In this document: piece by piece, positions 6,097-30,990 of the stretch
Layout of the letters: every line of letters starts with the position of its first letter
Numbering within the stretch: position 1 is the first letter of the stretch
Assembly (NCBI RefSeq): GCF_000455285.1
Contig: NZ_HG005287.1
Span: forward strand, 250,214-283,560
Direction of reading: 5' to 3'
DNA from: Candidatus Stoquefichus massiliensis AP9
Lineage (GTDB): Bacteria; Bacillota_I; Bacilli_A; Erysipelotrichales; Coprobacillaceae
Length of the DNA stretch: 33,347 bases
The notes under the pieces: generated by a model
Databases searched by the model: none
Told to the model about the DNA's origin: nothing
What the model saw: only the letters and a program-made list of their open reading frames with translations
Program-made: the position numbers and the translations under genes

Positions 6097-7565
<1,469 letters not shown>

Positions 7566-7661: not shown

Positions 7662-7690
7662 TTGTTTTCGGTTCGACTTTATTCTACAAT
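7662..7690 (+). promoter_or_regulatory. Candidate promoter of the CapA-like gene
   Basis: TTGTTT (7662-7667), 17-nt spacer, TACAAT (7685-7690). It would give a leader of only about 10 bases before the ATG at 7707, which is short, so it is tentative. Confidence 0.35.
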
Positions 7691-7706
7691 AAATATGGTG
7701 ATGATT

Positions 7707-8852
7707 ATGAAAAAAATATGTTTATGTTTTTTGCTTCTTCTTACTGCTTGTCAAAGCCAAGAAACCGATAAAACAATTGAAACGAAATCAACAAATGTTC
7801 ATTGTACATTTGTTGGTGATCTATTATATGAACAACCCTATTATGATTGGATAGAAAATGATTCTCAAGATAAAGGTTATTATGATCTTGTGAGACCTTA
7901 TTTTCAAAAAGATGACTTATCTATTGCCAATTTAGAGACACCAATTGGAGGAACTGAATTAAAAACTTCTGGAGTAGGTTATTCTTTTAATGCTTCTAAA
8001 GAAATTGGTGAACAAGTTGCATCTTTAGATTTAGAAGTGGTTTCGACTGCCAATAATCATGCAAATGATAGAGGCAATAAAGGTATCGATAACACACTCA
8101 AATTCTTACAAGAGAAAAACATCTTATCTGTTGGAACATATAAAAATGAAGAAGATCGTAAACAAGGAAGGTATCAAACAATTAATGGTATTAAATTTGG
8201 CTATGTTGCTTATACATATGCAACGAATCAGATTGTAAGTAAACAAAATCAGCATAAGATTAGTCTCTTTAATCAGCCAAGCAATCGTCAATTTACACAA
8301 GAATATAAAGATTTACTCACAAAAGAAATTACTGAAACAAGAAAGAACTGTGATGTCTTAATTGCAATGATGCATTGGGGAACTGAATTCACATACGATA
8401 TTTCAGCACAACAAAAAGAAGTCTCAAAATTTATCAGTGATTTAGGTGTTGATATCATTATTGGCAATCATCCCCATTGTTCACAAACAATGGAATGGAT
8501 CAACAACAATAAAACGCTTTGTATGTATTCATTAGGAAACTTTGTTTCAGCTGATCATATTGTTGATAGAACAAACCAGGAATTTAAGAATGCTTATAAT
8601 GTTTCCATGATGGTCACTTTAGATATCAAAAAAGACAATGATCACTTATCTATTGAAGACATTCAATATATTCCTATTATCAATTACTATGATAAAAAAC
8701 TCAAGAACTTCAAACTCGTTCCTTATGACCAATATACACAAGAATTAGAAAAAACACATTATCACTATAAAAATGGTTTTACAAAAGATTGGATTCAAAA
8801 AACATATCAAAAATTAATACCTAAAGCAATTCCTAATCATCAGTTAACATAA
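7707..8852 (+). CDS. CapA/PGA_cap-family putative lipoprotein
   Basis: About 381 residues from the ATG at 7707, which gives a clean lipoprotein signal: MKK, a short hydrophobic stretch and an L-T-A-C lipobox with Cys15. Earlier in-frame codons would place about 15 unlikely residues before it. The CapA/metallophosphatase-like core has LSIANLETPIGG, STANNHANDRG, MMHWGTEF, IIGNHPHCSQ and YSLGNFVS, so the His/Asn metal-site residues of this superfamily are present. CapA homologues take part in poly-gamma-glutamate capsule assembly, but no capBC genes are nearby, so a capsule role is not supported. It may be an extracytoplasmic phosphoesterase-like enzyme of unknown substrate. It is a single gene, convergent with the sulfatase maturase gene. 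Confidence 0.82.
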   Translation: MKKICLCFLLLLTACQSQETDKTIETKSTNVHCTFVGDLLYEQPYYDWIENDSQDKGYYDLVRPYFQKDDLSIANLETPIGGTELKTSGVGYSFNASKEIGEQVASLDLEVVSTANNHANDRGNKGIDNTLKFLQEKNILSVGTYKNEEDRKQGRYQTINGIKFGYVAYTYATNQIVSKQNQHKISLFNQPSNRQFTQEYKDLLTKEITETRKNCDVLIAMMHWGTEFTYDISAQQKEVSKFISDLGVDIIIGNHPHCSQTMEWINNNKTLCMYSLGNFVSADHIVDRTNQEFKNAYNVSMMVTLDIKKDNDHLSIEDIQYIPIINYYDKKLKNFKLVPYDQYTQELEKTHYHYKNGFTKDWIQKTYQKLIPKAIPNHQLT

Positions 8853-8877
8853 AAAACCCAGAAATTCTGGGTTTTTA
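8851..8877. terminator. Bidirectional terminator between the CapA-like gene and the maturase gene
   Basis: A CCCAGAA / TTCTGGG stem flanked by an A run on the left and a T run on the right. It sits exactly between the two convergent stop codons and can serve both strands. Confidence 0.88.
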
Positions 8878-9948
8878 TAATGAATACAATTTTGGTAATA
8901 GACTTTTTAATAGATCCTGATATCCACAATACTCATTTTGAACATAAACATCCCTCATTCTTTTACAGTTTCCATGACAAAAGGAAATAAACTGACATGA
9001 CTTACATATATCCATTTGTTCATTAACAATACGAGAGAAGTTCAAGAAAATTTTATGCTTTGCCATCTCTTGAAAATCATTTTCAAGCACATTTCCAATT
9101 TTATATTCATCTAAAGCATAAAAATCACATGGATAAGCCATCCCATTGGCTTCAATAATAAAGTTAGGCTGACACTGTCCCATCATACCACATGTCATTG
9201 GAGCTTGTCTGTGTAATATGGCAAGCAAATCTTCAAAGAGAGTGATATGCATATAGTAACCTGATTGATAATCTTTGATCCATAGTTTAAAGAGTTGTTT
9301 ATAGAATTCTGCAAATAAATGACTATCTAAGGCATAAGGATTTTCATAGTCAAAATCAGGTAAACAGGGAATGAATTGAATATATTCAAAGTTTTGTTTT
9401 TTATAGAATTGATAGACTTTTTGAGGGTGTTTAGCAAGTTGATTCGTGAGGACTGTTAAGATATTAAAATCAATCTTATTTTTCTTCAATAGATCTATAA
9501 ATTTGATAACGGAAGAAAAAGACGCTTTTTGATCTATTGTTCGAAAATAATCATGGTTATCTTTATATCCATCTAATGAAACACCAACTAAAAAATGATA
9601 TTTTACAAATAAGTCACACCATTCTTGAGTCACTGCTATAGCATTTGTTTGTATTAAATATTGTCTTTTTTGAGTTTTTAATTTGATTTCATCTACTTTT
9701 TGACAAAAATATTGAAAAAATTCAAGACCTGCCAAAGTCGGTTCGCCACCTTGAAATCCAAAAGTTATCAAACCATTTTCACCAACATAATCACAAGCTT
9801 TTTTGATAAGCTCATCAACTGTTTCATGTTTCATGATTATGGCATCATATTCTTTTCTATGCCTAGCAACATCTTTATAAAAACAATAACGACATTCCAT
9901 CTGACATAAAGATGAAGCAGGTTTAATTAATAAATGAATGGATTTCAA
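8875..9948 (-). CDS. Anaerobic sulfatase-maturating enzyme (radical SAM/SPASM)
   Basis: 357 residues. It oxidises the active-site Cys of a sulfatase to formylglycine in the cytoplasm, using SAM and iron-sulfur clusters. The radical SAM motif is C15-x3-C19-x2-C22 (LCQMECRYCF), with FQGGEP as the SAM-binding GGE. The C-terminal SPASM region has multiple Cys: TCGMMGQC, YPCDFYALD, ICKSCQFISFCHGNC and EYCGY. The start is a TTG at 9948, 8 nt after AAAGGAGG, with no better ATG near. It lies 16 bases downstream of a sulfatase gene whose active site is of the Cys type, the exact substrate this enzyme needs. It is the last gene of the EIIC-LacI-sulfatase operon. Confidence 0.93.
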   Translation of the reverse strand: MKSIHLLIKPASSLCQMECRYCFYKDVARHRKEYDAIIMKHETVDELIKKACDYVGENGLITFGFQGGEPTLAGLEFFQYFCQKVDEIKLKTQKRQYLIQTNAIAVTQEWCDLFVKYHFLVGVSLDGYKDNHDYFRTIDQKASFSSVIKFIDLLKKNKIDFNILTVLTNQLAKHPQKVYQFYKKQNFEYIQFIPCLPDFDYENPYALDSHLFAEFYKQLFKLWIKDYQSGYYMHITLFEDLLAILHRQAPMTCGMMGQCQPNFIIEANGMAYPCDFYALDEYKIGNVLENDFQEMAKHKIFLNFSRIVNEQMDICKSCQFISFCHGNCKRMRDVYVQNEYCGYQDLLKSLLPKLYSL

Positions 9949-9964
9949 GATAGTTCCTCCTTTA

Positions 9965-11407
9965 TCAATGATTCAATCCTAAACGCTTAAATTCTTCTTG
10001 TGGTGCATCAACAGCTTTCATCATATCGATCATAGCATTTTCTAATCGATTTTGGATTTCTTGATTATCAATTTGTATTTCTTTTTCTCTCACATCAAAT
10101 AGGAGATTTCCAAACAGATAAGACTGCATATATGATTTCCCTCTCATTTTTAAATAAGGAATTCCATGACTCAATTGATCACCATCAACAATTTGCATTG
10201 TTTCTAAAACATCTTTTGGAAAGAAACTACGCATTTGAGTTGGCATCAGTGTGCATTCTACAAAAGGCTGGTTCGTCTTATCATGACTTGCTTTCATATA
10301 AACATAATCACCATCTGTAATATTGACATGTCCACCATGCATTCCAAACAATGCATAATCATGAATTTTTTGATTTTCTTTCACCACTGGCAATAAAGAT
10401 TTTCCTTCCATATTCTCAGGTTTTTCTAATCCAAAATAATCTAATAGTGTCGGTGCAATATCAATAGTTTGACATAAAGCATCTCTTCTCCCTATGGATT
10501 GCTTAGGAACATGAATATAAAAAGGTATATGAATGATTTCCTGATGCATTGGCCAGAAGTTCTTTCCTAAATAATTGTGTTCTCCTAACAAGAATCCATG
10601 ATCCGTATTGACAATTAACATAGTATCATCCCACATATGATATGCATCCATCATATCCAGAACTTTTCCTAAATAAGTATCACACATTGCAATTAAAGAA
10701 GCATATTCTTTTCGCAACGCACTGACATCTAAATCATCATCCATTGGCATATATGCTGGCCAATTTAATTCCACTTCATCAGGAAGATCATACATTTTTC
10801 GATATTTATCTGGAACATAGAAAGGTTCATGAGGGTCAAATGATTCAATAGTTAAAAACCAGTTATCATTATCTTTATTTTCCTCAATAAATTTCATACC
10901 AGCATGAAAAGTCTTAACAGATGACATATCTTCTTCTACTCGCTGTGCTAATTTATTTGCAGCATGCTGAGTCACTGATATTCCTTTTTTACCATATTTT
11001 GATACGTCTGGCGTTTGTACATTTAAACGTGGTATCCAACGATCCCCTTCTTGTCCTCTAAACCCTTCCCAAGAAGAATATCGATTATGATAAGTACATC
11101 CACCATCCTCAAAATAATGTGAATGATCTGTACAAAGATGGGTATAAATCCCTGCAGCACTCAGTGCTTCAACGACCGAAAAATCGAACGGTTCCAATGG
11201 TCCCCAACTTCTATGCAAAAAATTATATTTCCCAGTATGAAGTTCTCGTCTCGCTGGCATACATGGCATACTGCCACCATAAAACCTATCCATCACACAA
11301 CATTTCTCTTCTAATCTTTTGAAATTGGGTGTATGACACCAATCATTTCCATAAGTTGAAAGATAATTTCTTGTTAATGTATCAAACATGACCATTATGG
11401 CTTTCAT
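9965..11407 (-). CDS. Cytosolic type I sulfatase, Cys-type formylglycine site
   Basis: 480 residues of the alkaline-phosphatase-like sulfatase family. The active-site signature is SMPCMPARRELHTG at residues 46-59. Cys49 in C-x-P-x-R is the residue converted to formylglycine, and R53 follows. Metal-binding residues are suggested by D9 near the N terminus and by NTDHGFLLGEH in the second half. There is no signal peptide (MKAIMVMFDTL starts directly on the first beta strand), so it acts inside the cell on a substrate that has been imported. Its ribosome site AAAGGAG lies in the end of the lacI-type gene, 2 bases before which translation stops, so the two are coupled. The sulfated substrate is not identifiable; linkage to a PTS permease suggests a sulfated mono- or disaccharide. 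Confidence 0.92.
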   Translation of the reverse strand: MKAIMVMFDTLTRNYLSTYGNDWCHTPNFKRLEEKCCVMDRFYGGSMPCMPARRELHTGKYNFLHRSWGPLEPFDFSVVEALSAAGIYTHLCTDHSHYFEDGGCTYHNRYSSWEGFRGQEGDRWIPRLNVQTPDVSKYGKKGISVTQHAANKLAQRVEEDMSSVKTFHAGMKFIEENKDNDNWFLTIESFDPHEPFYVPDKYRKMYDLPDEVELNWPAYMPMDDDLDVSALRKEYASLIAMCDTYLGKVLDMMDAYHMWDDTMLIVNTDHGFLLGEHNYLGKNFWPMHQEIIHIPFYIHVPKQSIGRRDALCQTIDIAPTLLDYFGLEKPENMEGKSLLPVVKENQKIHDYALFGMHGGHVNITDGDYVYMKASHDKTNQPFVECTLMPTQMRSFFPKDVLETMQIVDGDQLSHGIPYLKMRGKSYMQSYLFGNLLFDVREKEIQIDNQEIQNRLENAMIDMMKAVDAPQEEFKRLGLNH

Positions 11408-11409
11408 AC

Positions 11410-12453
11410 TTATTCTCCTTTCTTTAGGAGTTTTACTGTTTCTCTTTCTATAATGACTTCTTTATGATTCTCAAATCTCTCATGATATTCTTGCTCAACA
11501 ATAGAAACATCTTGTTTTAGTATTGATGCAACCAAATAATCTACTGCATAATGATATGACAATGACTCATCACTAGAACCTAAAGTACTCAATGCAGGTT
11601 TGACAAACTTTGATTGAACCAAATTGGTTCCACCAATAATAGATATATCATCTGGAACTTTAATTCCATGATCAGTTAAACATAATAACCCACCAATCGC
11701 AATATCATCATTGGCATATATAATTGAATCAATCTCTCCTTGATGGATACAATCTATCATTGTTTTTGTCACTTCATAACCTGCTTCATAAGTACTGGCT
11801 TCAGCATAAAACAACTTACTCTCATCAATATCCAAATGTGCACGATGTAATGATTGTAAATAATTTTCTAATCGCCTAATTGATCCTAATGTATCTAAAG
11901 ACCCTAATACAAAGGCAATCTTAGAAAAATGATGTTGCAACAAATATTCTGTAATCTTGCATGATTTATCATGTTTAGAATTGAATTGTGGCAATGATTT
12001 CACATAGTCTCCCTGTATTTCCCTTCCCATGACAATAATAGGAAAGTCAGGTGAAGCATACTGTAATATAAAATCATCATCAATATTCACTGTATAAATG
12101 ATAGCTCCTGCTGCACGATGTTCAGATATATATTTTTTTGCTGTATGATCATGTTTAAGATATGTTGTTGAAATTAATAAATCAAAATTATGATAAGCTA
12201 CTCTTCTTTGAATAAAATCAATAACCTTAGAAAAGAAAGGTCGAGAAGCATCTTCAACAACTAATAAAATAAGTTTAGAATGACCTTGCTGTAAATCCAC
12301 AGCAAGACCATTCTTCACATATCCTAATTCTCTTGCAGCATTCAAAACGAGAGTTCTTGTTTCTTCTTTGATTTTAGAATTTCCATTTAAAGCCATGGAA
12401 ACAGTCGATACTCCTAAATTTAATTTTTTTGCTATATCTTTAATTGTTACCAT
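11410..12453 (-). CDS. LacI-family transcriptional regulator
   Basis: 347 residues. The N-terminal helix-turn-helix is TIKDIAKKLNLGVSTVSMALNG (residues 3-24), followed by the hinge helix region ending near ELGYVKN and a periplasmic-binding-like sugar domain (about 60-335). Start ATG at 12453 follows AAGGTGATTAT. It lies inside the operon between the PTS EIIC gene (63-bp gap) and the sulfatase gene (2-bp gap), so it is autoregulated if it binds the operon promoter. The two TGAAACGTTTCA palindromes at that promoter have the central CG typical of LacI-family operators and are the obvious candidate sites. The inducer is presumably the sulfated sugar or its phosphate, which is inference. Confidence 0.93.
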   Translation of the reverse strand: MVTIKDIAKKLNLGVSTVSMALNGNSKIKEETRTLVLNAARELGYVKNGLAVDLQQGHSKLILLVVEDASRPFFSKVIDFIQRRVAYHNFDLLISTTYLKHDHTAKKYISEHRAAGAIIYTVNIDDDFILQYASPDFPIIVMGREIQGDYVKSLPQFNSKHDKSCKITEYLLQHHFSKIAFVLGSLDTLGSIRRLENYLQSLHRAHLDIDESKLFYAEASTYEAGYEVTKTMIDCIHQGEIDSIIYANDDIAIGGLLCLTDHGIKVPDDISIIGGTNLVQSKFVKPALSTLGSSDESLSYHYAVDYLVASILKQDVSIVEQEYHERFENHKEVIIERETVKLLKKGE

Positions 12454-12516
12454 ATAATCACCTTATTTCCCTAATAATAGTCATTATATCATAACTTATT
12501 TCATTAATCTTCCTTT

Positions 12517-13821
12517 TTATTGATCTAGACTTGCATTTTCCTCCTGAAGGAGTTGTTTATCATACATTTTTACAAATGGGAATAAAATGACAACATCAAT
12601 GGCAAACATAATTAACCACATGAAGATTGTTTTCACATCACCTGTTGATAAGAATAAATTCAAGATTCCAGGACAAGTAAATGGTAAACTGATATAAATA
12701 CTTCCTATCACTCCAGAATCCATTAATATATAAGCAGCTGTACACATAATTACATTACAAATCATAATTGGTAATGCTAGTAAAACGTTCATAACAATTG
12801 GTACACCAAATGTTAATGGTTCATTGATATTAAACATATCTGGTACCAATGCTAATTTTCTTAATGATTTTAACTGAGCTGATTTTGCAACTAAGAAGAA
12901 AACTAACATCATTGCTGGATAAGACATCCAGTTTCCAAAGATTGTCATAAATGCTCCAGCTAAAGGTGTAGGTGTTCCTTGCCCTGTCATAATAAATTGA
13001 GCATTGATTGCTAAGTTTGCAGTTGTAATAGGTGTTAAAACAGATCCTACTAAGTTATTTCCATGAATCCCCATGAACCAGAATAAACTTAATAAAATAC
13101 TAATCATAATCACTGATGGTAAAGAACCAGAAGCAGATAATAATGGTTGAATTAACGCATAAATTAATTTACAAAGATTTGTATCCATCAGACTTAAACT
13201 AATCACATTGGCAATTAAGAATAAGATTGTTGAGATTGTAAACGGTATTAATGCTTCAAATGGCGCTGAAACATTAGGTGGAACTTGTTCAGGTAATTTA
13301 ATCTTAAAGTTTCTCACTTTGCAGAAGCGATAGATTTCACATACCACAAAAGCCACAATAATTGCATAGAACATTCCTACTCCACCTAGATTCCCAGCAG
13401 AGATAACTGTCCCAAGTTCTTTTGTCGTAAAAGGTGCAGCAGATGTTAAAAAGAAAATAAACAATGAACAAAATCCAACAGCTAATCTATCAATTTCATA
13501 ATCCTTAGCAAGTTCATATGCGACTCCAAAAGCCACATAAACTGCAATAAAGTTAATTGTTAAGTTAAAAACAGATAGTAAAACCTCTCCATTCGTTGTT
13601 GCCCATGCTTTCCATGACAATAAGAATGAATAAAAGAAATTTGTTGCTTCCATTGTTGCAGGTACTGGTGGTTGTGCTAACAAACAAAAGATTCCTCCAA
13701 TAATCATAAATGGAATAGTAAACATCATTGCATTCTTTACAGCAGTCAAATGTTTATTATTGTTCAATACATTCGAAACAGGTAGTAATAAATCAGTTAG
13801 TTTTTCAGTCAATGTCTCCAT
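12517..13821 (-). CDS. PTS EIIC permease, cellobiose/lichenan (Lac) family
   Basis: 434 residues, multi-spanning. Family marks are KNAMMFTIPFMIIGG near the N terminus, IKLPEQVPPNVS before the second half, FWFMGIHGNN, and FNINEPLTFGVPIVMN with the conserved Glu of the sugar site. It is the membrane channel that imports and phosphorylates a beta-glycoside with help from EIIA and EIIB, neither of which is encoded nearby. Start ATG at 13821 follows GGGAGG at 7 nt. It is the first gene of an operon with the LacI regulator, sulfatase and maturase, which hints at a sulfated glycoside as substrate. If so, C6 of the sugar being phosphorylated cannot carry the sulfate. Confidence 0.92.
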   Translation of the reverse strand: METLTEKLTDLLLPVSNVLNNNKHLTAVKNAMMFTIPFMIIGGIFCLLAQPPVPATMEATNFFYSFLLSWKAWATTNGEVLLSVFNLTINFIAVYVAFGVAYELAKDYEIDRLAVGFCSLFIFFLTSAAPFTTKELGTVISAGNLGGVGMFYAIIVAFVVCEIYRFCKVRNFKIKLPEQVPPNVSAPFEALIPFTISTILFLIANVISLSLMDTNLCKLIYALIQPLLSASGSLPSVIMISILLSLFWFMGIHGNNLVGSVLTPITTANLAINAQFIMTGQGTPTPLAGAFMTIFGNWMSYPAMMLVFFLVAKSAQLKSLRKLALVPDMFNINEPLTFGVPIVMNVLLALPIMICNVIMCTAAYILMDSGVIGSIYISLPFTCPGILNLFLSTGDVKTIFMWLIMFAIDVVILFPFVKMYDKQLLQEENASLDQ

Positions 13822-13844
13822 TTTAATTCCTCCCTAGATGTTTT

Positions 13845-13856
13845 TGAAACGTTTCA
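13845..13856. promoter_or_regulatory. Operator palindrome O1 (TGAAACGTTTCA)
   Basis: A perfect 12-bp palindrome with central CG, located at the predicted transcription start of the EIIC-LacI-sulfatase operon. It is identical to the copy at 13902-13913. It matches the general form of LacI-family sites. Confidence 0.75.
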
Positions 13857-13863
13857 CAATTAT

Positions 13864-13892
13864 AATATACATAATATATATACGTTTGTCAA
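13864..13892 (-). promoter_or_regulatory. Sigma-A promoter of the EIIC-lacI-sulfatase-maturase operon
   Basis: Minus-strand consensus TTGACA (13887-13892), 17-nt spacer, TATATT (13864-13869). The predicted start near 13857 falls on operator O1, and operator O2 lies directly upstream of the -35, so both can block polymerase. Confidence 0.8.
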
Positions 13893-13901
13893 TCGTTTTT
13901 T

Positions 13902-13913
13902 TGAAACGTTTCA
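13902..13913. promoter_or_regulatory. Operator palindrome O2 (TGAAACGTTTCA)
   Basis: Second perfect copy of the 12-bp palindrome, centred 57 bp from the first, about 10 bases upstream of the -35 box. Confidence 0.75.
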
Positions 13914-13923
13914 ATATTTTTTC

Positions 13924-13948
13924 AAAAAAATAACATCTTTCGATGTTA
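13924..13948 (-). terminator. Terminator of the DegV gene
   Basis: TAACATC / GATGTTA stem with a 4-nt loop, followed on the minus strand by seven T residues. It overlaps the DegV stop codon and insulates DegV from the sulfatase operon promoter. Confidence 0.8.
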
Positions 13949-14779
13949 CTTCTTTATTGTTTGAATTGCAATACACCCAGGACCACCTTGAGTAATAAAT
14001 GCTGGAGATAGTTTATATAATTCAATTTCTACATTTGCAAAAGCCTCCTGTATTTGAACTATTGCTGATTTTGCCTGTTCTAACACACCTGCATGAGTGA
14101 CATATATCTTATAATCTTCATTCACTCCCATTTCCTGAAAAGCTTTAATAATTTCCTTGATTGCACTTTTAAATGTTTTTTTCATACCATATTTTTCTAA
14201 ACGTTTTGCATCTTTTGTTGTTGTCATAATAGGTGTAATTCTTAACATTCCACCTACCGTTGCTGCTAAAGGGGTTAAACGCCCACCACGCTTTAAAAAT
14301 CCAAAATCCTGAGGAATTAAAAACGATTTCTCTGTTGCAATACTTTTATGTAATTCTTTCATAATATTATCTAAAGATAATCCTTCATTCTTTAGTTTAA
14401 CAGCTTTTTCAACTAAATATCTTTCAGGTCCACATAGTGTCATTGAGTTAATTACATGTATATTATCATTATTTTCAACACTTTCTTTAGCACCTAAAGT
14501 ACTTTGATAAGTCCCTGATAATCCATCAGCCATATTAATAACCAATAACTCTTCATCTTTATTATTTTCAAATAATTCCATAGTTACCCCTATTGATGGT
14601 TGTGATGAACTTGGAACATGCCCTTGCTTAACAATTTCTAAAAATTCATCGCTTTCTATATCAACAAATTCACGATAACTTTTTTTATTGACAACAACAT
14701 TCAATGGTAAAACTTCAATTCCTAATTTTTTTCCTTCTTCAGGTGAATATAAAGAACCTGTATCTGTTATAATCTTCAT
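13946..14779 (-). CDS. DegV-family fatty-acid-binding protein
   Basis: 277 residues, normal for the family. DegV/FakB proteins bind a fatty acid and present it to FakA kinase for phosphorylation. Visible features are the N-terminal ITDTGSLYSPEEG strand-loop, the PSSSQPSIG loop that contacts the carboxylate, the ADGLSGTYQS motif, and a C-terminal TQGGPGCIAI. No FakA gene is in the window, so this is probably one of several FakB-like proteins. Start ATG at 14779 follows AAGGAGAAAAGTT. Monocistronic, with its own terminator. Confidence 0.9.
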   Translation of the reverse strand: MKIITDTGSLYSPEEGKKLGIEVLPLNVVVNKKSYREFVDIESDEFLEIVKQGHVPSSSQPSIGVTMELFENNKDEELLVINMADGLSGTYQSTLGAKESVENNDNIHVINSMTLCGPERYLVEKAVKLKNEGLSLDNIMKELHKSIATEKSFLIPQDFGFLKRGGRLTPLAATVGGMLRITPIMTTTKDAKRLEKYGMKKTFKSAIKEIIKAFQEMGVNEDYKIYVTHAGVLEQAKSAIVQIQEAFANVEIELYKLSPAFITQGGPGCIAIQTIKK

Positions 14780-17710: not shown

Positions 17711-17745
17711 TAAAGCTATAATCGAATGATTATAGCTTTATTCTT
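17711..17745. terminator. Bidirectional terminator between the ABC ATPase and ROK genes
   Basis: A perfect 13-bp stem (17711-17723 with 17728-17740) around a GAAT loop, with T-rich sequence on both sides. It overlaps the ROK stop codon. Confidence 0.8.
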
Positions 17746-18620
17746 TCGTATGCATTTGATATAGCACCTAAAATATTTGCATCATTTTGATATGCACATC
17801 GTTCTATTTTGGTTGTAATTAAATGAGAAAAACGTTGAGGCAATGATTCATTAAACAATGTTTGTATCTTTTCAATAAACCAATCTTCTTCTGAAATACC
17901 TCCACCAATACATATAATCTCAGGGTTATAACAGATGACCATTGTATTTAAGGCAAAGATAATATTTTGACACCATTCTTCAATAGATTCACTTGCAAGA
18001 TGATGGCCTTTTAAATACAAATCACAAATATCTTTTCCAAATTGCAAGTGTTGATCAGTAGAAACTTTCATATTATAAATGTCAACTAATGCTGGCATAG
18101 ACGCATAATGTGACAAACTCATCATCTTCCCATCTTTCATACTAAATGGGAGACACGAAAACTCTCCAGCTAAATGATTGACCCCAGTGATATCATTTTC
18201 CCCTTGATAAACACAGCCACCAACACCTGTTCCAATAATCAGAAAAGCACTCATCCGACTACCTTTTGCATTACCAAAGCGTAGTTCACATAGTCCTGCT
18301 GCCTTCGCATCATTCATAGCAAAGACAGGCTTAAATAAACGTTGGCTCATTTCAGAGTTGATATTCGTTTGAAACATCACACTTACTGTATCAGCTGCTT
18401 TTGATAAGACATTTGAATCATTATCAATGATTCCTGGAGCACTCACACCCACATAATCAATATGTTGCATATCAATCCCTTGACAAAGGCTATCATAAAA
18501 ATCATCCTTTGTATTCATTTTCCTTGTTTCCTTTTTCCATTTCTTAATAATATGAAAATCTTGATCAACAAGTGCATACTTAATATATGTCCCACCAATA
18601 TCAATTCCTAAATGATTCAT
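17730..18620 (-). CDS. ROK-family sugar kinase (BglK-like)
   Basis: About 296 residues from the ATG at 18620, which lies 8 nt after AGGAGG; a GTG one codon earlier is less well placed. The ATP/phosphate site is GIDIGGTYIKYAL at the N terminus, NDAKAAGLCE carries the catalytic Asp of ROK kinases, and IGTGVGGCV is the second phosphate loop. The CxCGxxGCxE zinc motif of many ROK proteins is absent. There is no DNA-binding domain, so it is a kinase rather than a NagC-type repressor. It follows a GH4 6-phospho-beta-glucosidase gene by 22 bases in an operon; ROK beta-glucoside kinases phosphorylate unphosphorylated cellobiose-type sugars so that GH4 can cleave them. It might instead phosphorylate the glucose released. 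Specificity is inferred. Confidence 0.87.
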   Translation of the reverse strand: MNHLGIDIGGTYIKYALVDQDFHIIKKWKKETRKMNTKDDFYDSLCQGIDMQHIDYVGVSAPGIIDNDSNVLSKAADTVSVMFQTNINSEMSQRLFKPVFAMNDAKAAGLCELRFGNAKGSRMSAFLIIGTGVGGCVYQGENDITGVNHLAGEFSCLPFSMKDGKMMSLSHYASMPALVDIYNMKVSTDQHLQFGKDICDLYLKGHHLASESIEEWCQNIIFALNTMVICYNPEIICIGGGISEEDWFIEKIQTLFNESLPQRFSHLITTKIERCAYQNDANILGAISNAYERIKL

Positions 18621-18642
18621 CACGATAACCTCCTATTTTTTA

Positions 18643-20034
18643 TTATAAACCTTTTTCAGTTAATTCTCTAGCCACATCATCTTTAATTGTGACACCTGCT
18701 GCTTCTAATTCTGTAATTTTATCAGCAAATTGTGGTAAGTATTTTTTATGAGCAATTAATAATTCATCTAAAACTCTTTTTGCATTTTCTCCAGAAGGGA
18801 CTTGAGGATTTAAGATAAATGCTTGTAAAGCTAATCCATAATCTCCTGTTACTGCTGCTTCTTCAACACACATTTCCATGTTCTTCATGCATTGTAACCA
18901 TCCTCTTTCAGCTGGCTCTAATGATCCAAATGCAATGGCTCTTGCTCCTGCTGAACCAATAAATGCAGAAACTTCTACTGCACAGTCAGCTGGTAAATCA
19001 GGAACTGCTCCATTATTTTTAGTTGTAACAACCATATGAGTATTACTATTTGCATAAATAGATGCAATTGTTTCACATGCTGCATCTGAGTAATGAGTTC
19101 CACCACGTTTTGTTAATTGTTCTGGTTTGTAGTTCAAAGCAGGGTCTTTATATAATTCAAATAGTTCTTCTTCTGTTTGTTTCACTTGTTGTCCACGTGT
19201 TCCAATTGTATTAAATTCTTCAATACCATGAGCTAACATTTCTTGTTGACGATAATAGTATCTATGATATCCACAAGGTAACATTTTCATTGCATTTAAT
19301 TGTTCTTTAAAATAAGAAACTGCATGAATATTAGCAGGAATTCCACCATCTTTACCTTCATACATTGCATCAATGATTTGTTGTGTTACATCATTACCAT
19401 TTAAATCAAAGACTTTATGCCAATGGAAATGGTTCAATCCAGCAAATTTATAAACCAATTCATCTAAAGTTTTACCAATCATTTCTGGTTCTTTCATCAT
19501 AGCACTTACTGGTACATTACATAATCCAATGACTTTATCCCATTGACCATATTTCATAACAGCTTCAGTAACCATACCACTTGGATTTGTAAAGTTGACT
19601 AACCATGCATCTGGACATAATTCTTTCATATCTTCTACAATACTTAAGATAACAGGAATTGTTCTCAATGCTTTAAACATTCCTCCAGCACCATTTGTTT
19701 CTTGTCCTAACATTCCATAAGAGAAAGGAATTCTTTCGTCTTTAATACGTGCATTTAATAAACCAACTCTAAATTGAGTAGTTACGAAGTCTGCATCTTT
19801 TAAAGCTTCTCTTCTGTCTAATGTTAAATGAACTTTCACATCATAAGGAGATGCATCCCACATACGTTGAGCCATAGCACCAACGATTTCTAATTTTTCT
19901 TTACCATCTTCAATGTCAACTAACCACATTTCTTTAATTGGAAGTTTTTCATATCTTTTGATAAATCCTTCCATTAATTCTGGAGTATAACTGCTTCCTC
20001 CACCAATTGTTACAATCTTTACTGCATTTTTCAT
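18643..20034 (-). CDS. GH4 6-phospho-beta-glucosidase
   Basis: 463 residues. This NAD- and Mn-dependent hydrolase cleaves 6-phospho-beta-glucosides by an oxidation-elimination route in the cytoplasm. The Rossmann motif is VTIGGGSSYTPELM at the N terminus. NPSGMVTEA (N150) and the metal site with Cys172 and His202 (LCNVP, AGLNHF) are present. The CNVP motif after LC is the one associated with 6-phospho-beta-glucosidases in GH4, so substrate class is well supported. It lies between a Lac-family EIIC gene and the ROK kinase gene on the same strand. It has a 185-base upstream spacer full of inverted repeats and may be transcribed both from its own promoter and by readthrough from EIIC. Confidence 0.93.
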   Translation of the reverse strand: MKNAVKIVTIGGGSSYTPELMEGFIKRYEKLPIKEMWLVDIEDGKEKLEIVGAMAQRMWDASPYDVKVHLTLDRREALKDADFVTTQFRVGLLNARIKDERIPFSYGMLGQETNGAGGMFKALRTIPVILSIVEDMKELCPDAWLVNFTNPSGMVTEAVMKYGQWDKVIGLCNVPVSAMMKEPEMIGKTLDELVYKFAGLNHFHWHKVFDLNGNDVTQQIIDAMYEGKDGGIPANIHAVSYFKEQLNAMKMLPCGYHRYYYRQQEMLAHGIEEFNTIGTRGQQVKQTEEELFELYKDPALNYKPEQLTKRGGTHYSDAACETIASIYANSNTHMVVTTKNNGAVPDLPADCAVEVSAFIGSAGARAIAFGSLEPAERGWLQCMKNMEMCVEEAAVTGDYGLALQAFILNPQVPSGENAKRVLDELLIAHKKYLPQFADKITELEAAGVTIKDDVARELTEKGL

Positions 20035-20087
20035 GTTAAAACCACCTTTCTATTTTATAAACATATCATAATTGATTTTATAAAGAA

Positions 20088-20101
20088 GTAAATGCATTTA
20101 C
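20088..20101. promoter_or_regulatory. Palindrome GTAAATGCATTTAC upstream of the GH4 gene
   Basis: A perfect 14-bp palindrome 54 bases upstream of the GH4 start, the first of several inverted repeats in this spacer. Possible operator. Confidence 0.4.
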
Positions 20102-20110
20102 ATACACTTT

Positions 20111-20121
20111 GTACACTGTAC
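20111..20121. promoter_or_regulatory. Palindrome GTACACTGTAC (candidate RpiR site)
   Basis: An 11-bp inverted repeat. Its TACACTGT core differs by one base from the TACAATGT core found in the 20-bp repeat at the EIIC/RpiR promoter region. Confidence 0.45.
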
Positions 20122-20122
20122 C

Positions 20123-20138
20123 CTTTTATCCATAAAAG
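20123..20138. repeat. Palindrome CTTTTATCCATAAAAG
   Basis: 7-bp arms around CC, directly beside the GTACACTGTAC element. Function unknown. Confidence 0.35.
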
Positions 20139-20154
20139 ATAGAGATAATAGTGT

Positions 20155-20162
20155 TACAATGT
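20155..20162. promoter_or_regulatory. TACAATGT motif copy upstream of the GH4 gene
   Basis: Exact match to the 8-base core of the inverted repeat at 21694-21749. Candidate half-site of the RpiR regulator, by shared sequence only. Confidence 0.4.
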
Positions 20163-20164
20163 TC

Positions 20165-20192
20165 CAAAAGTACAAGGATTGATCCTTGTACT
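20165..20192 (-). terminator. Hairpin after EIIC, possible partial terminator
   Basis: Perfect 11-bp arms (AGTACAAGGAT at 20169-20179 and its complement at 20182-20192) with a 2-base centre, 28 bases past the EIIC stop. Only four T residues follow on the minus strand, so readthrough into the GH4-ROK genes is likely. Confidence 0.6.
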
Positions 20193-20219
20193 CAATGTCA
20201 AAAATATTCTACTGGATAT

Positions 20220-21617
20220 CTAATCAACCATTTCTGATTGTTTGTTTTGATACTTTTCATATACCACTAAGAATGGTGCATAAATAACAACACAAGTAAC
20301 AATAACGATTAATTGTGAAACAGCACCCATGATGTTTCCACCAGTTGCTAAGAATCCCATTAATAGTGGGGGCATTGTCCAAGGGACTTCTAAAACGACT
20401 TTTGGACAGAAGCCAATCATTGTTAAAACATAACCAATTGTTATAGATATACATGGCGCTAAGATAAATGGAATCCCAAGTATTGGATTTAAAACAATAG
20501 GTAATCCAAATGTCACAGTTTCATTAATATTAAATAATCCTGGTACAACAGATAAAGCCGCAATCGCACGATTATCCTCTCTCTTGCCAAAGATAAAAAT
20601 AGCAATAATCAATGATAATGTCAGACCTGACCCTCCCCATTTACCAAACATTTCCAACATTGTTAAATTGAGAATATTAGGAATATCTTGCGGTCCACTG
20701 TAATTCGCAGATGTACAGGCAGCAGTGTTAGCATATAATAATGGTCTAAAAATTGATTGATTAACTGCCTCAACCATGTTATTACCATGAATACCAACTA
20801 ACCAAAACAATGAAATGACAACAAACAACAACAATACTGCAAGTAGATTATTCCCAATAATTTGCCCTAATGGTTCCTGAACCAGCGTGAAAATCAAATC
20901 ATTGACATAACTTCCTGTCACACTATGCACTGCAAATCCAATTCCACCGATCACAACAACTGTTAAAAATGCTGGAATTAAAACTTCAAAAGATTTGGCC
21001 ACCCCAGGTGGGACTTGTTCAGGCATTCTTATCTTCAATGCATCCATCTTTCTTAATAATCCAAAAATTTCTAAAGCAACTATACCAATAATTAATGCTG
21101 TAAACAGACCAGTCGCACCAGTATAAGATGATGAAATTCCACCAAAATCAGCAACTGTTGCTCCTTGTGGTAAAAAGTCAGCAACTGTCTTTGTTGTAGA
21201 ATCAGCTAACATTACAGTTTGTCCACTTAAACTATAACTATTAGGTGTCACAACCATCCATGATATAAATCCTAAAACACCACTAAATATACCTGTCTCA
21301 CCATTCATTTCCCCAATTTCTTGTGCAACCAAAATCACAATTCCAATTGAAATACATGAAATTGTTGCAAATTGAATAGCAGAGAATATAGTATTCAATG
21401 GTTCTAATTTCATCACAACTGGTAAGAGACTTCCTAAACCTTGAGGTGCTCCATTAACAACATTGTCATTAATGAAAACATTTGTCCAAAGTACTCCAAT
21501 AGCACCAGCAATTGTTGCTGGCATGAAGTTTTGAAACGCATTTTTGATAGCTGACAAATATTTATTTTGTCCACACCATGCCCCAATGCGCCCTAGCTTA
21601 TCAGCAAAAGCATCCAT
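20220..21617 (-). CDS. PTS EIIC permease, cellobiose/lichenan (Lac) family
   Basis: 465 residues, about ten membrane segments. Marks of the family are IKNAFQNFMPATIAGAIG near the N terminus, IRMPEQVPPGVAKS, FWLVGIHGNNM, and FNINETVTFGLPIVLN. It imports a beta-glucoside, probably cellobiose or a related disaccharide, with phosphorylation by EIIB and EIIA that are not encoded here. It is about 30 residues longer than the EIIC of the sulfatase operon. The extra length is mostly in an outer or loop region near residues 120-165. GGGAGGAAAGAAT precedes the ATG. It is expressed from a promoter divergent from the RpiR gene and is followed by the GH4 and ROK genes. Confidence 0.92.
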   Translation of the reverse strand: MDAFADKLGRIGAWCGQNKYLSAIKNAFQNFMPATIAGAIGVLWTNVFINDNVVNGAPQGLGSLLPVVMKLEPLNTIFSAIQFATISCISIGIVILVAQEIGEMNGETGIFSGVLGFISWMVVTPNSYSLSGQTVMLADSTTKTVADFLPQGATVADFGGISSSYTGATGLFTALIIGIVALEIFGLLRKMDALKIRMPEQVPPGVAKSFEVLIPAFLTVVVIGGIGFAVHSVTGSYVNDLIFTLVQEPLGQIIGNNLLAVLLLFVVISLFWLVGIHGNNMVEAVNQSIFRPLLYANTAACTSANYSGPQDIPNILNLTMLEMFGKWGGSGLTLSLIIAIFIFGKREDNRAIAALSVVPGLFNINETVTFGLPIVLNPILGIPFILAPCISITIGYVLTMIGFCPKVVLEVPWTMPPLLMGFLATGGNIMGAVSQLIVIVTCVVIYAPFLVVYEKYQNKQSEMVD

Positions 21618-27433: not shown

Positions 27434-28477
27434 TTACTGAAAACGAGTTCCCGCTTTGACTGCAAACTCTTGAAATACAGGTTCTGATGGGTTAATACCT
27501 TTATATTCCGGGAGGATGGAAGCCATAACCTGTAAGACCACAGTTACATTAAAAAGCGCTTTTGTTAAGGAATGATAAGGAATCATAATATCAGCTAAAT
27601 GTGAATCTGTATCTTCAATAACGCAAATATGTGCATCTTGTTTTCTAGCAAATTCAATGAGATGACTCATTAAATCATATCCTACACCATTAGTATGTAT
27701 AAATACCAAATAACTATCTTTATGTATAGTACGATGAGGCCCATGCATGAATTCTTCTAATTCATAATTCATAGCTGGAATTTGCAAAGTTTCTAATAAT
27801 TTTAAATTTCCTTCGCATGCAGTTCCATAATGCAATCCATATCCAATAACTGAAATACAATTTGCTTGAGACCATTCTTGATGCGAAACTATATATTGTT
27901 GTGTTTGCAGAATTGTTTGATCAATTGTATCTAATTGATTTAGCCATTCTGTTTTATATTCATTTAAAGAATATATATAATCTTGATTATTTTGTAAAAT
28001 CTGAAAAATAATCATGTATAAAGTTAAACATGTTGCTGTATAACCTTTTGTTTTTGGTCCAATTGTTTCTTCTCCACATTGTAAATCTACATTAACATTA
28101 CAGTATTGTGTCAGTGGTGATGTCATATCTCCACATACTCCAATGACTGGTATATGATGATGACGAGCTATTTTAGCACAATCTATTGTTCCTTTGCTTT
28201 TGCCAGTTTGTGATACAGCAATGATAAGATCTGACGTTTCTAATAAACTGGAATAATGTTTTAACTGAAAAGGTGTTTCTATATTGATTTGTAAATGAGC
28301 TTTTGCAAACGATGATTGAATAACTTGTGCTGCATTATGAGATGAACCAGAAGCTGCAATTGTAATTCTATGAATATGAACTATATCTTTTAAAATAGAT
28401 AAATCACTATTAGTAAGGATATGAGACAGTACATCTTTTTGCTGTAAAATGTACTGTTTCATGATATTATCTGTCAT
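27434..28477 (-). CDS. Double-SIS-domain sugar-phosphate isomerase/deaminase-like protein
   Basis: 347 residues with two SIS domains (about 25-165 and 195-335). The first has TIAASGSSHNAAQVI and IIAVSQTGKSKGTI; the second has ISVIGYGLHYGTACEGNLKL. The GPKTKGYTATCLT and MNYELEEFMHGPHRT stretches resemble the isomerase half of GlmS and the FrlB-type deglycases, where the Glu and His take part in catalysis. There is no HTH, so it is an enzyme, not a regulator. It overlaps the GH4 gene by 11 bases and closes the operon. The likely job is to convert an amino-sugar phosphate or glycosylamine phosphate released by the GH4 enzyme into a glycolytic hexose phosphate. The exact substrate is not readable. 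Confidence 0.85.
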   Translation of the reverse strand: MTDNIMKQYILQQKDVLSHILTNSDLSILKDIVHIHRITIAASGSSHNAAQVIQSSFAKAHLQINIETPFQLKHYSSLLETSDLIIAVSQTGKSKGTIDCAKIARHHHIPVIGVCGDMTSPLTQYCNVNVDLQCGEETIGPKTKGYTATCLTLYMIIFQILQNNQDYIYSLNEYKTEWLNQLDTIDQTILQTQQYIVSHQEWSQANCISVIGYGLHYGTACEGNLKLLETLQIPAMNYELEEFMHGPHRTIHKDSYLVFIHTNGVGYDLMSHLIEFARKQDAHICVIEDTDSHLADIMIPYHSLTKALFNVTVVLQVMASILPEYKGINPSEPVFQEFAVKAGTRFQ

Positions 28478-29744
28478 TTTTAAAGAACTGAGGTAAATAA
28501 TCTTTATGTACTTCTAACATTTCATCTAATAGTGGTTTTGCAATATCATATTCTCTCACGAGTGGATGTGCTAACATTGCTTTTAAGGCTATATTATAAT
28601 CTCCACTTAATGCCGCTTCAACTGTTAATGATTCATAATTTTTAACAGCAGCAATTAATCCACAAACTGATTGAGGATAATCTCTTAAATTTAATGGTTT
28701 TATTCCATCACGGCTTACAAAACATGCCGTTTCTATTACTGCATCATCATTTAAAAAACGAATTGTACCATTATTAGGAACATTAATAACCATCCATTTC
28801 CCACTGTCATTATATACTGCTTCCATAACGCCAACAGCTATCTTTGAATAACCGCCGCCGCCACGCTTAGCCAATGTTTTTGGTTTACTACTATTTTCAG
28901 GATTAGAATATTCACGCCAAATTTGTTTTTCTAATTCTAAAATAGCTTCTCCACGTGTTTTATCCTGGCTCTTTAATTGAGATAATATTTTTGATGTATG
29001 GAAATAATATTGGGTATATTGGCTTGGAATAAGATGTAATGTTTGAATTAAATCTTGTGAAACTGTAGCACATTTTTTGGCAACTAAACTGAACTGTTCA
29101 TCTGTTATTGGTTTCCCATCTACTGTCATATTATAAGTAAAATTCATATGATTTAAGCCAATATAATCATAATATATAGATTCTTCTGGAACTTGTAATG
29201 CTTCTTCTGCCCACCAGCGTGGTCTCATTCCACCTGCACATAATCCCGCCATATTAACATCACAAACTTTTAAAACAGCTTCAGTTACTAATCCTGTTGG
29301 ATTAGAATAATTGACAATCCATGCATCTGGACAATATTTTTCAACATCTTTAGCTATATCTATCATCACTGGAATTGTTCTTAATGCATTAAACATACCA
29401 CCTACACCAGTTGTTTCTTGTCCAATCACACCATATTTTAACGGAATTTTTTCATCATATATACGTTGTTTGTTTCCACCTACTCTTATCTGGCAAGCAA
29501 TAAAATCAGCACCTGGGAATGCTTCTTCACGAGATGTTGTTGAAGCAATTGAAACATGATAATCTAAATGATGACAGTAACGATGAACAAATCCATCCAT
29601 AATTTTTAATCTATCCTCATCAATATCTACTAATACAATCTCTTTAACTGGCAATACATCTCTATGTTCACTTAAACCTTCAATTAATTCAGGAGTATAA
29701 GAACTCCCTGCTCCAACAATAACTATTTTCAATTCTTTATTCAT
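28467..29744 (-). CDS. GH4-family glycosidase with atypical metal-site motif
   Basis: 425 residues, clearly GH4: VIVGAGSSYTPELIEGL as the NAD-binding loop, IGQETTGVGGMFNALRTIP, SNPTGLVTEAV with N148, and IGLNHM with His199. The segment that names specificity in this family reads C169-A-G-G, whereas 6-phospho-beta-glucosidases have C-N-V-P, 6-phospho-alpha-glucosidases C-D-M-P, alpha-glucosidases C-H-E and alpha-galactosidases C-H-S. The metal Cys is kept but the following residue is not a standard ligand. It overlaps EIIC by 8 bases and the SIS gene by 11 bases. It probably acts on a phosphorylated glycoside brought in by that EIIC, but the sugar is likely not plain cellobiose. A broken enzyme is unlikely because the reading frame and the other motifs are intact. 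Confidence 0.88.
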   Translation of the reverse strand: MNKELKIVIVGAGSSYTPELIEGLSEHRDVLPVKEIVLVDIDEDRLKIMDGFVHRYCHHLDYHVSIASTTSREEAFPGADFIACQIRVGGNKQRIYDEKIPLKYGVIGQETTGVGGMFNALRTIPVMIDIAKDVEKYCPDAWIVNYSNPTGLVTEAVLKVCDVNMAGLCAGGMRPRWWAEEALQVPEESIYYDYIGLNHMNFTYNMTVDGKPITDEQFSLVAKKCATVSQDLIQTLHLIPSQYTQYYFHTSKILSQLKSQDKTRGEAILELEKQIWREYSNPENSSKPKTLAKRGGGGYSKIAVGVMEAVYNDSGKWMVINVPNNGTIRFLNDDAVIETACFVSRDGIKPLNLRDYPQSVCGLIAAVKNYESLTVEAALSGDYNIALKAMLAHPLVREYDIAKPLLDEMLEVHKDYLPQFFKNDR

Positions 29745-30990
29745 CCTCTATCATTCCTTTCTCATTTTCAATATTTAATCGTTGTTTTTCCATTATTTTA
29801 AAGAATGGATAATAAATAGCACCTGCAACAAACAATGATATAACTCCCCAAATAGCAGCACGCCAATCACCACCTGTTAAAAAATATTGAGCTAAAACTG
29901 GTGGCATAGTCCAAGGAATATTCACTAACGGACGGGCAATCAGATTAAAATACATTAATCCATATGTAATAATTGATAATACTTCAGTGGCTAATACATA
30001 AGGTATTATCATTAATGGATTCATAACCAATGGAACACCAAAAACAACTGGTTCATTAATTTCAAATATACCTGGAGCTAAACAAAGTTTACCTAATGAT
30101 CTAAATCCCTTTTCTTTTGAACGCATCATTAGGAATACCAATGGCAATGTTGCTCCACCTCCACCAAGAAATACAAAATACATAAATCCTGATGCTGTAA
30201 TATAAGGCAATGGTGCACCAGCTGCTGCTGCAGCAATATTGTCGCCTAACATAACTAAGAATATAGGATCAGCAATTGCTAAAACCGCTCCGCCATGAAT
30301 ACCAACACACCATAATAAAGATCTAATTAACATAAAAATGAGGAAACCTGGTAAAGTATTCAAAGCAAAAACTGCTGGTTCAAAAATTTTAATAAGTGTT
30401 GCATTAATATCAAATCCTAAAATAACTCTTAATAACCATACAATTAATAATACTGCTAAAGCTGGTACCAAAGACATGAATGACTCTGACACAAGGGGTG
30501 GTACTGAATCTGGAAAATGAATAACCAAATTACGCTGATAGAAAAAGTGTAATATCGTGGTTGAAAGCAAAGCAATCACAACAGCTGTAAATAACCCCTT
30601 TGTACCAAACAAAGATGCATTAATAACCCACTCATCATTTAATGTAGCTAGAAGGAAAGCTGTCATAGAAATAACACTGCATGTCAATGAATTGAGGTTA
30701 ATATCTTTATATGTTTTTGCAAAGTAATAAGCAACAGTCCCAGCTGCTACAATACCAACAATATCAATTGTAATAGCTGAAACTGCATTAAACAATGGTG
30801 CATAGGGTTCAATAAATTTCATCCATGCATCAATTGGAAAGTTAGGAATCAAAACAAAGAAACTACCAATAATAGTCAATGGAATAACACTTATCATTCC
30901 ATCTTTAATAGCACTTAAGTGCCTTTGATTTCCCAATTTCTCTAATGGTGGTGCTAATTTTAATTCAATAAAATCCATAAATTTTTTCAT
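29737..30990 (-). CDS. PTS EIIC permease, Lac family, divergent
   Basis: 417 residues. Family marks are AIKDGMISVIPLTIIGSFF, IHFPDSVPPLVSES, and FEINEPVVFGVPLVMN. The central motif reads LWCVGIHGGAV rather than GIHGNN as in the other two EIIC proteins of this window, suggesting a different sugar. It imports and phosphorylates a beta-linked sugar with EIIA and EIIB that are not encoded in the window. Start ATG at 30990 follows AAAGGAGAAAGGAT. It is the first gene of the EIIC-GH4-SIS operon, with an 8-base overlap with GH4. A PRD-type regulator lies upstream across the IS remnant. Confidence 0.9.
   Translation of the reverse strand: MKKFMDFIELKLAPPLEKLGNQRHLSAIKDGMISVIPLTIIGSFFVLIPNFPIDAWMKFIEPYAPLFNAVSAITIDIVGIVAAGTVAYYFAKTYKDINLNSLTCSVISMTAFLLATLNDEWVINASLFGTKGLFTAVVIALLSTTILHFFYQRNLVIHFPDSVPPLVSESFMSLVPALAVLLIVWLLRVILGFDINATLIKIFEPAVFALNTLPGFLIFMLIRSLLWCVGIHGGAVLAIADPIFLVMLGDNIAAAAAGAPLPYITASGFMYFVFLGGGGATLPLVFLMMRSKEKGFRSLGKLCLAPGIFEINEPVVFGVPLVMNPLMIIPYVLATEVLSIITYGLMYFNLIARPLVNIPWTMPPVLAQYFLTGGDWRAAIWGVISLFVAGAIYYPFFKIMEKQRLNIENEKGMIEDE

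Follow-up and report, generated by a model that had tools for sequence, protein, structure and literature searches.

Most carbohydrate sulfatases that have been described work outside the inner membrane. Among the closest described systems is the pneumococcal accessory island sph1922-sph1930, in which genes for a lactose (lac)-type enzyme IIC (EIIC) of the phosphotransferase system (PTS), EIIA and EIIB lie together with those for a sulfatase, a sulfatase-modifying enzyme and a TauE-type protein (PMC3283741, McAllister 2012; PMC3302838, Bidossi 2012). Transcripts of EIIC and the sulfatase rise when the ROK regulator is deleted, and strains lacking parts of the island are less fit in mice; the authors did not commit themselves on whether the PTS and the sulfatase act together (PMC3283741). 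A literature search, in which subscription papers were mostly beyond reach, returned no biochemical demonstration of a cytosolic sulfatase working with a PTS. Here we describe an operon of the gut-type bacterium Candidatus Stoquefichus massiliensis AP9 that encodes an EIIC, a LacI-family regulator, a sulfatase and a radical SAM protein resembling anaerobic sulfatase-maturating enzymes (anSMEs). It lies in a stretch of 33,347 nucleotides (contig NZ_HG005287.1, positions 250,214 to 283,560), referred to below as the window. Judging from sequence and from comparison with relatives, we consider that the operon is probably (with a probability of about 0.7) a substrate-induced module for PTS import, phosphorylation and cytosolic desulfation of a sulfated sugar compound.

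In the proposed pathway, EIIC, together with EIIA and EIIB encoded elsewhere, would import the sulfated compound and phosphorylate it; the phosphate would most probably go to C6 of a glucosyl or galactosyl residue in beta linkage. The anSME would turn Cys49 of the sulfatase into formylglycine in the cytosol, and the matured sulfatase would then remove a sulfate located at another position of that sugar, on a second sugar or on an aglycone. That the phosphorylated C6 cannot be the sulfated position was already argued in the initial annotation of the window; the logic is sound, and it has been published for glycosaminoglycan (GAG) disaccharides in a study of Streptobacillus moniliformis, whose authors consider C6-sulfated sugars unsuitable as PTS substrates (PMC5430744). 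Once the sulfate is gone, a 6-phospho-glycosidase, such as one of family GH1, would split the 6-phospho-glycoside and so feed glycolysis. LacI would act as the repressor, occupying two operators around the strong promoter until it is freed by a substrate-derived inducer. Sequence and comparison show which genes there are and in what order, the operators, the terminators that isolate the set, the intact active site of a cytosolic sulfatase and the PTS link across the family; that the compound is transported in sulfated form, that it is phosphorylated before it is desulfated and that it is a beta-glycoside, we infer.

Operon structure and regulation

The EIIC, LacI, sulfatase and anSME-like genes are consecutive on the minus strand, with intergenic gaps of 63, 2 and 16 bp. 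The features of the locus, in window positions, are the following.

13923..13956, minus strand: terminator of the upstream DegV gene (z of -4.97)
13901..13914, no strand assigned: predicted LacI operator 1, TTGAAACGTTTCAA, immediately upstream of the -35 element (palindrome search, conservation in relatives)
13864..13892, minus strand: operon promoter TTGACA-17-TATATT (11 of 12 consensus positions)
13844..13857, no strand assigned: predicted LacI operator 2, GTGAAACGTTTCAA on the operon strand, immediately downstream of the -10 element (palindrome search, conservation)
12517..13821, minus strand: PTS EIIC, lactose/cellobiose family (Pfam and NCBIfam)
12483..12488, minus strand: possible weak internal promoter with an extended -10 element, TGATATAAT (TATAAT), in the EIIC-LacI gap before LacI (consensus match only)
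11410..12453, minus strand: LacI-family regulator (Pfam and NCBIfam)
9965..11407, minus strand: predicted cytosolic S1-type sulfatase with formylglycine precursor Cys49 in CMPAR (Pfam, NCBIfam, conserved residues, model)
8875..9948, minus strand: radical SAM/SPASM anSME-like maturase, TTG start (Pfam, NCBIfam, similarity to 4k37)
8846..8876, minus strand: terminator at the operon end (z of -4.52)

This layout confirms a predicted single operon, tight, self-contained and locally regulated, with a strong promoter of its own that is isolated by the upstream DegV terminator. The initial annotation had recognized this minus-strand set and assigned it a single good promoter. All four genes were found, and the strong promoter is present, but "single" is not strictly certain because of the possible internal promoter in the EIIC-LacI gap.

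Both predicted operators consist of the palindrome TGAAACGTTTCA, with a central CG, and they bracket the operon promoter. When the 3.51-Mb genome was scanned, this 12-mer occurred only twice, both times at the operon promoter. Sulfatase loci used for comparison are labeled L followed by a number; L148 and L149 belong to the same genome as the window. In relatives with the order EIIC-LacI-sulfatase, the palindrome precedes EIIC, in two copies in L005 and L017 and in one copy in L171. In L173, LacI leads and the sulfatase stands before EIIC; here two copies lie between LacI and the sulfatase, and in L177 a diverged pair is found upstream of sulfatase-EIIC, facing a divergent LacI. The window LacI is 46 to 50% identical to the LacI proteins of these loci. 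This comparative evidence suggests that LacI controls EIIC and the sulfatase jointly and little else. A catabolite-responsive element (cre) for CcpA was rejected as an alternative to the LacI operator: the cre consensus has one more base than TGAAACGTTTCA, which lacks it and has just the two genomic sites.

EIIC matched PF02378 (E = 7e-52), TIGR00410 (297 bits, above the cut-off of 236 bits) and 3qnq (E = 9e-62), and contains the GIHG and NEPLTFG motifs. It is 66, 60 and 60% identical to the EIICs in the EIIC-LacI-sulfatase operons of L005, L171 and L017, respectively, compared with at most 32% identity to about 30 paralogues in its own genome. Therefore, transporter, regulator and sulfatase travel together. 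No EIIA or EIIB gene was found in the window, which makes this EIIC an orphan; both partners must come from elsewhere, and the rest of the genome holds 8 EIIA, more than 30 EIIB and more than 35 lac-family EIIC matches. Two more orphan EIICs are encoded in the window, at 17730-21617 and 27434-30990, adjoining GH4 phospho-glycosidase-type genes; one of these loci also has a SIS-domain protein, and neither has EIIA or EIIB in the window.

The coupling recurs within the genome, which encodes three S1 sulfatases and three anSME-like enzymes, each pair beside a lac-family EIIC. (A further, larger PF00884 protein, with a frame of 675 residues, was taken as lipoteichoic acid synthase-like.) The cluster L148 (contig C3, 5586-16046) comprises EIIC, sulfatase, RpiR, anSME, EIIA, a second EIIC, a PRD regulator, EIIB and YdjC, and L149 (contig C3, 185-190 kb; L149:7425-12309) comprises anSME, RpiR, EIIC and sulfatase. 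The three S1 sulfatases are mutually distant (28 to 30% identity over partial alignments), so the EIIC-sulfatase-anSME coupling is not one duplicated cassette. The neighborhood search proposed earlier for this gene set has thus returned three separate clusters here, as well as recurrence in relatives. In L148, 17 bp are common to the EIIC and sulfatase frames, and the YdjC protein is a deacetylase.

The sulfatase and its relatives

The sulfatase matched PF00884 over the whole catalytic domain (108.7 bits, E = 5e-31; cut-off, 25 bits). The formylglycine motif CMPAR occupies residues 49 to 53, with Cys49 as the modifiable residue. Across 104 sulfatase relatives, D9, R53, H193, D269, H270 and K282 are near-invariant. 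The canonical K-x-H (GKWHxG) is replaced by T-D-H-x-H-Y at residues 93 to 98, of which D94, H95, H97 and Y98 show no variation in the family. Residue 9 is the catalytic Asp, and in the model the protein starts on the first strand of the core. Upstream of the start, which lies 2 bp past the LacI stop, the in-frame open reading frame extends for just 18 codons, leaving no room for a signal peptide. As the initial annotation had stated, the sulfatase has no signal peptide, and it is predicted to be cytosolic with intact active-site residues. The AlphaFold2 model (predicted local distance difference test score of 90) gave Z scores of 29 to 34 to S1 sulfatases, with ties among several S1 carbohydrate-sulfatase subfamilies (S1_7, S1_25 and S1_46) and phosphonate monoester hydrolases (PMHs). 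For the SulfAtlas subfamily, too, the structure search was tied among many S1 subfamilies and PMH. Since the fold is equally near to these groups, it does not name the substrate.

The nearest solved relative of the maturase is the Clostridium perfringens anSME 4k37 (E = 4e-69, residues 3 to 354 aligned). It carries the radical SAM CX3CX2C motif (CQMECRYC) and a SPASM domain (PF04055 and PF13186). Its score of 305 bits on TIGR03942 is below the strict equivalog cut-off of 349 bits; the other two anSME-like enzymes of the genome scored 341 and 293 bits. We therefore call it anSME-like, and its context and its similarity to 4k37 suggest that it works as an anSME.

We next consider the neighborhoods of related sulfatases, in which a PTS permease was scored if it was on the same strand and within 2.5 kb of the sulfatase. 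Such a permease was found beside 17 of the 20 close relatives (sulfatase identity of about 50% or more, mostly with long flanks), compared with 5 of 72 background windows of that set, and none of the 20 had an ATP-binding cassette (ABC) permease. The distant set of 21 Bacillota showed the opposite pattern (PTS, 0/21; ABC permeases, 11/21). A tree was built from 96 sulfatases, 39 of them PTS linked; every one of these 39 fell within a single 47-member clade, with SH-aLRT (approximate likelihood ratio test) support of 100%. The other 49 members included 16 that were ABC linked and none that was PTS linked, although flanks are short in L084-L112 and "no PTS" labels are soft there. PTS versus ABC linkage needs one change on the tree, which is a single evolutionary event and is to be weighted with caution. 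The permease varies within the PTS clade, being either a lac-family EIIC or a glucose-superfamily EIIBC(A); the link is thus to PTS uptake and not to one permease. Chance neighborhood was ruled out by the tree, operator and EIIC paralogue comparisons.

The two halves of the tree also differ at two residues of the sulfatase. Arg123 is present in 41 of 41 PTS-clade sulfatases, whereas only 2 of the 49 others have Lys or Arg at this position (mostly Pro). Lys125 is found in 42 of these 49 and in none of the PTS clade. Both positions adjoin the invariant RGQEGD segment. Arg123 could be a candidate phosphate contact in a pocket fitted to a 6-phosphate; the contrast lies between two clades, and shared ancestry alone may yield the same pattern. 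Tentatively, and with less than even confidence, we suggest that the PTS-linked clade consists of sugar-phosphate sulfatases that act only after 6-phosphorylation by the PTS, with Arg123 reading the phosphate.

Genes of the TauE/SafE or chromate-transporter type adjoin the sulfatase in 10 of the 20 close relatives, which is consistent with a release of sulfate in the cytosol. In L015 and L018-L022, there is one sulfatase, yet both an anSME and a protein with a formylglycine-generating enzyme (FGE)-sulfatase domain (PF03781) are encoded. A hydrophobic protein of about 150 amino acids, with no significant Pfam match, is encoded 16 to 29 bp after EIIC (8 loci measured) in sulfatase operons of Erysipelotrichales (L024:10771-11238, L173:8829-9293, L176:4327-4782 and L177:4218-4691; also L095, L097, L098, L101, L102, L104 and L105). 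It is absent from the window and may be an unrecognized PTS-associated membrane protein.

Substrate and alternative readings

The types of the linked permeases and the presence of GH1 in two relatives suggest a sulfated beta-glycoside as the best inference for the substrate. It would be a sulfated disaccharide in which one sugar takes the phosphate and the sulfate sits at another place, or else a glycoside whose aglycone carries the sulfate. The beta-glucoside EII family TIGR01995 was matched above its cut-off in L021, L022 and L174, and the other linked EIIs are of the cellobiose/lactose type. A GH1 gene of the 6-phospho-beta-glucosidase type lies inside the operon in L007 (TauE-GH1-EIIC-sulfatase) and L173 (sulfatase-EIIC-...-EIIB-EIIA-GH1), and it is from these two operons that a GH1 role is proposed. 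The window has a gene of the same type.

6120..7562, minus strand: GH1 of the 6-phospho-beta-glucosidase type (STGEMAKRY motif), outside the operon, possible partner in trans (Pfam and NCBIfam)

The earlier proposal that this nearby GH1 could finish the pathway is not supported. The gene has no LacI operator, which occurs nowhere else in the genome, and a plus-strand gene separates it from the operon, so by the operator test it is not in the regulon. The intervening gene (7662-8852, plus strand) encodes a lipoprotein-like PGA_cap (capsule synthesis-type) protein, converges on the operon end and has no evident link to it.

Glucosinolates are one candidate substrate class, offered as a lead only. 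They carry sulfate on the aglycone, and PTS and 6-phospho-beta-glucosidases are implicated in their use; sinigrin induces a glucose PTS and 6-phospho-beta-glucosidases matter in Escherichia coli (PMC6767122). According to the same review, the sulfatases of bacterial glucosinolate use are still to be identified, and Enterococcus casseliflavus CP1 degrades glucosinolates (PMC6767122). The L015 cluster comes from another strain of this species.

Several observations weigh against PTS-coupled desulfation. The case for it consists of sequence and comparison, not biochemistry. EIIC lacks EIIA and EIIB in its own operon, and the window GH1 is a separate, unlinked unit. No sulfate exporter gene lies beside the window cluster; TauE and chromate-transporter genes occur elsewhere in the genome. 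Eight members of the PTS clade have no nearby PTS gene in the available flanking DNA. For the pneumococcal counterpart, no hydrolysis of 4-methylumbelliferyl sulfate was detected, and the media used revealed no growth phenotype (PMC3283741). Of the original idea of PTS import followed by intracellular desulfation, the coupling of a cytosolic sulfatase to the PTS stands, through the three clusters, the dedicated EIICs, the LacI operators and the PTS-only clade; a sugar sulfate is the presumed substrate.

A different reading, which we regard as unlikely, is that EIIC and the sulfatase, though expressed from one promoter in response to one inducer, have different molecules as their substrates. 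In that case an unsulfated beta-disaccharide, set free from a sulfated glycan of host or plant origin, would enter through the PTS, and the small molecule desulfated by the sulfatase would come in some other way. EIIC by itself does resemble an ordinary cellobiose/lactose-type transporter; furthermore, no sulfate-bearing PTS substrate has been demonstrated, and no known PTS sugar is modified at C6 (PMC5430744). However, the PTS link recurs over one entire sulfatase clade, where it involves two unrelated EII superfamilies, and this genome has it in three sulfatase subfamilies. The ABC linkage of the sister half is a further argument that the sulfatase goes with its importer.

It is distinctly improbable that the "sulfatase" is a PMH/PehA-like enzyme that shares the fold but hydrolyzes phosphonates or phosphodiesters, with a phosphodiester-linked sugar as its substrate. 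Its best sequence matches include the PMHs 4upk, 2w8s and 2vqr and PehA, the usual KxH motif is replaced by TDHxHY, and the PMH family also uses formylglycine. Against this, many carbohydrate sulfatases (S1_7, S1_25 and S1_46) are among the structural neighbors with the same Z score, and sulfite/sulfate exporter-type genes adjoin the sulfatases of relatives. A route by PTS import of a sulfated unsaturated GAG disaccharide, desulfation and GH88 cleavage has very little likelihood: streptococci are documented to take up unsaturated hyaluronan disaccharides through a PTS (PMC9067506), but there is no GH88 anywhere in the genome, and no lyase or GH88 was noticed beside the sulfatase in relatives.

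If desulfation does follow PTS import, Bacillota would import sulfated sugars or glycosides intact, phosphorylate them and remove the sulfate within the cell, so that competitors have no access to the product. The retention of maturases and sulfatases by gut- and animal-associated Bacillota that have few extracellular sulfatases would then be explained, and the unexplained pneumococcal island would gain a substrate class. The PTS/ABC split and the diagnostic Arg make the proposal directly testable.

Comparison with known systems

The C. perfringens anSME (4k36-4k39) is, like the window enzyme, a radical SAM/SPASM maturase; the latter differs in scoring below the TIGR03942 cut-off. The GAG cluster of S. 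moniliformis likewise has a predicted cytosolic sulfatase that acts after sulfated-sugar import, but it uses an ABC transporter instead of a PTS and has GH88 and lyases (Oiki 2017, PMC5430744). Closer in content are the LicT-EIIBCA-sulfatase-anSME-TauE-FGE clusters of Enterococcus, Listeria and Streptococcus moroccensis (L014-L015 and L018-L022), which share an orthologous sulfatase (52 to 56% identity), an anSME and a same-strand PTS permease with the window operon. They differ in having a glucose-superfamily EIIBCA and a LicT antiterminator where the window has a lac EIIC and LacI, and most of them include the exporter and the FGE-domain gene.

The pneumococcal island resembles the window locus in combining EIIC, a sulfatase and a maturation enzyme, with a local sugar-type repressor governing EIIC and the sulfatase. 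It has EIIA, EIIB, two EIICs, a TauE-type exporter and a ROK regulator, whereas the window locus has an orphan EIIC and a LacI with mapped operators. The pneumococcal sulfatase, with DQMRADAL (from a published primer), resembles the L149 type, whereas the window sulfatase has FDTLTRNYL. The kind of system was therefore already known by gene content, though unproven by function, and the window operon adds a new variant to it.

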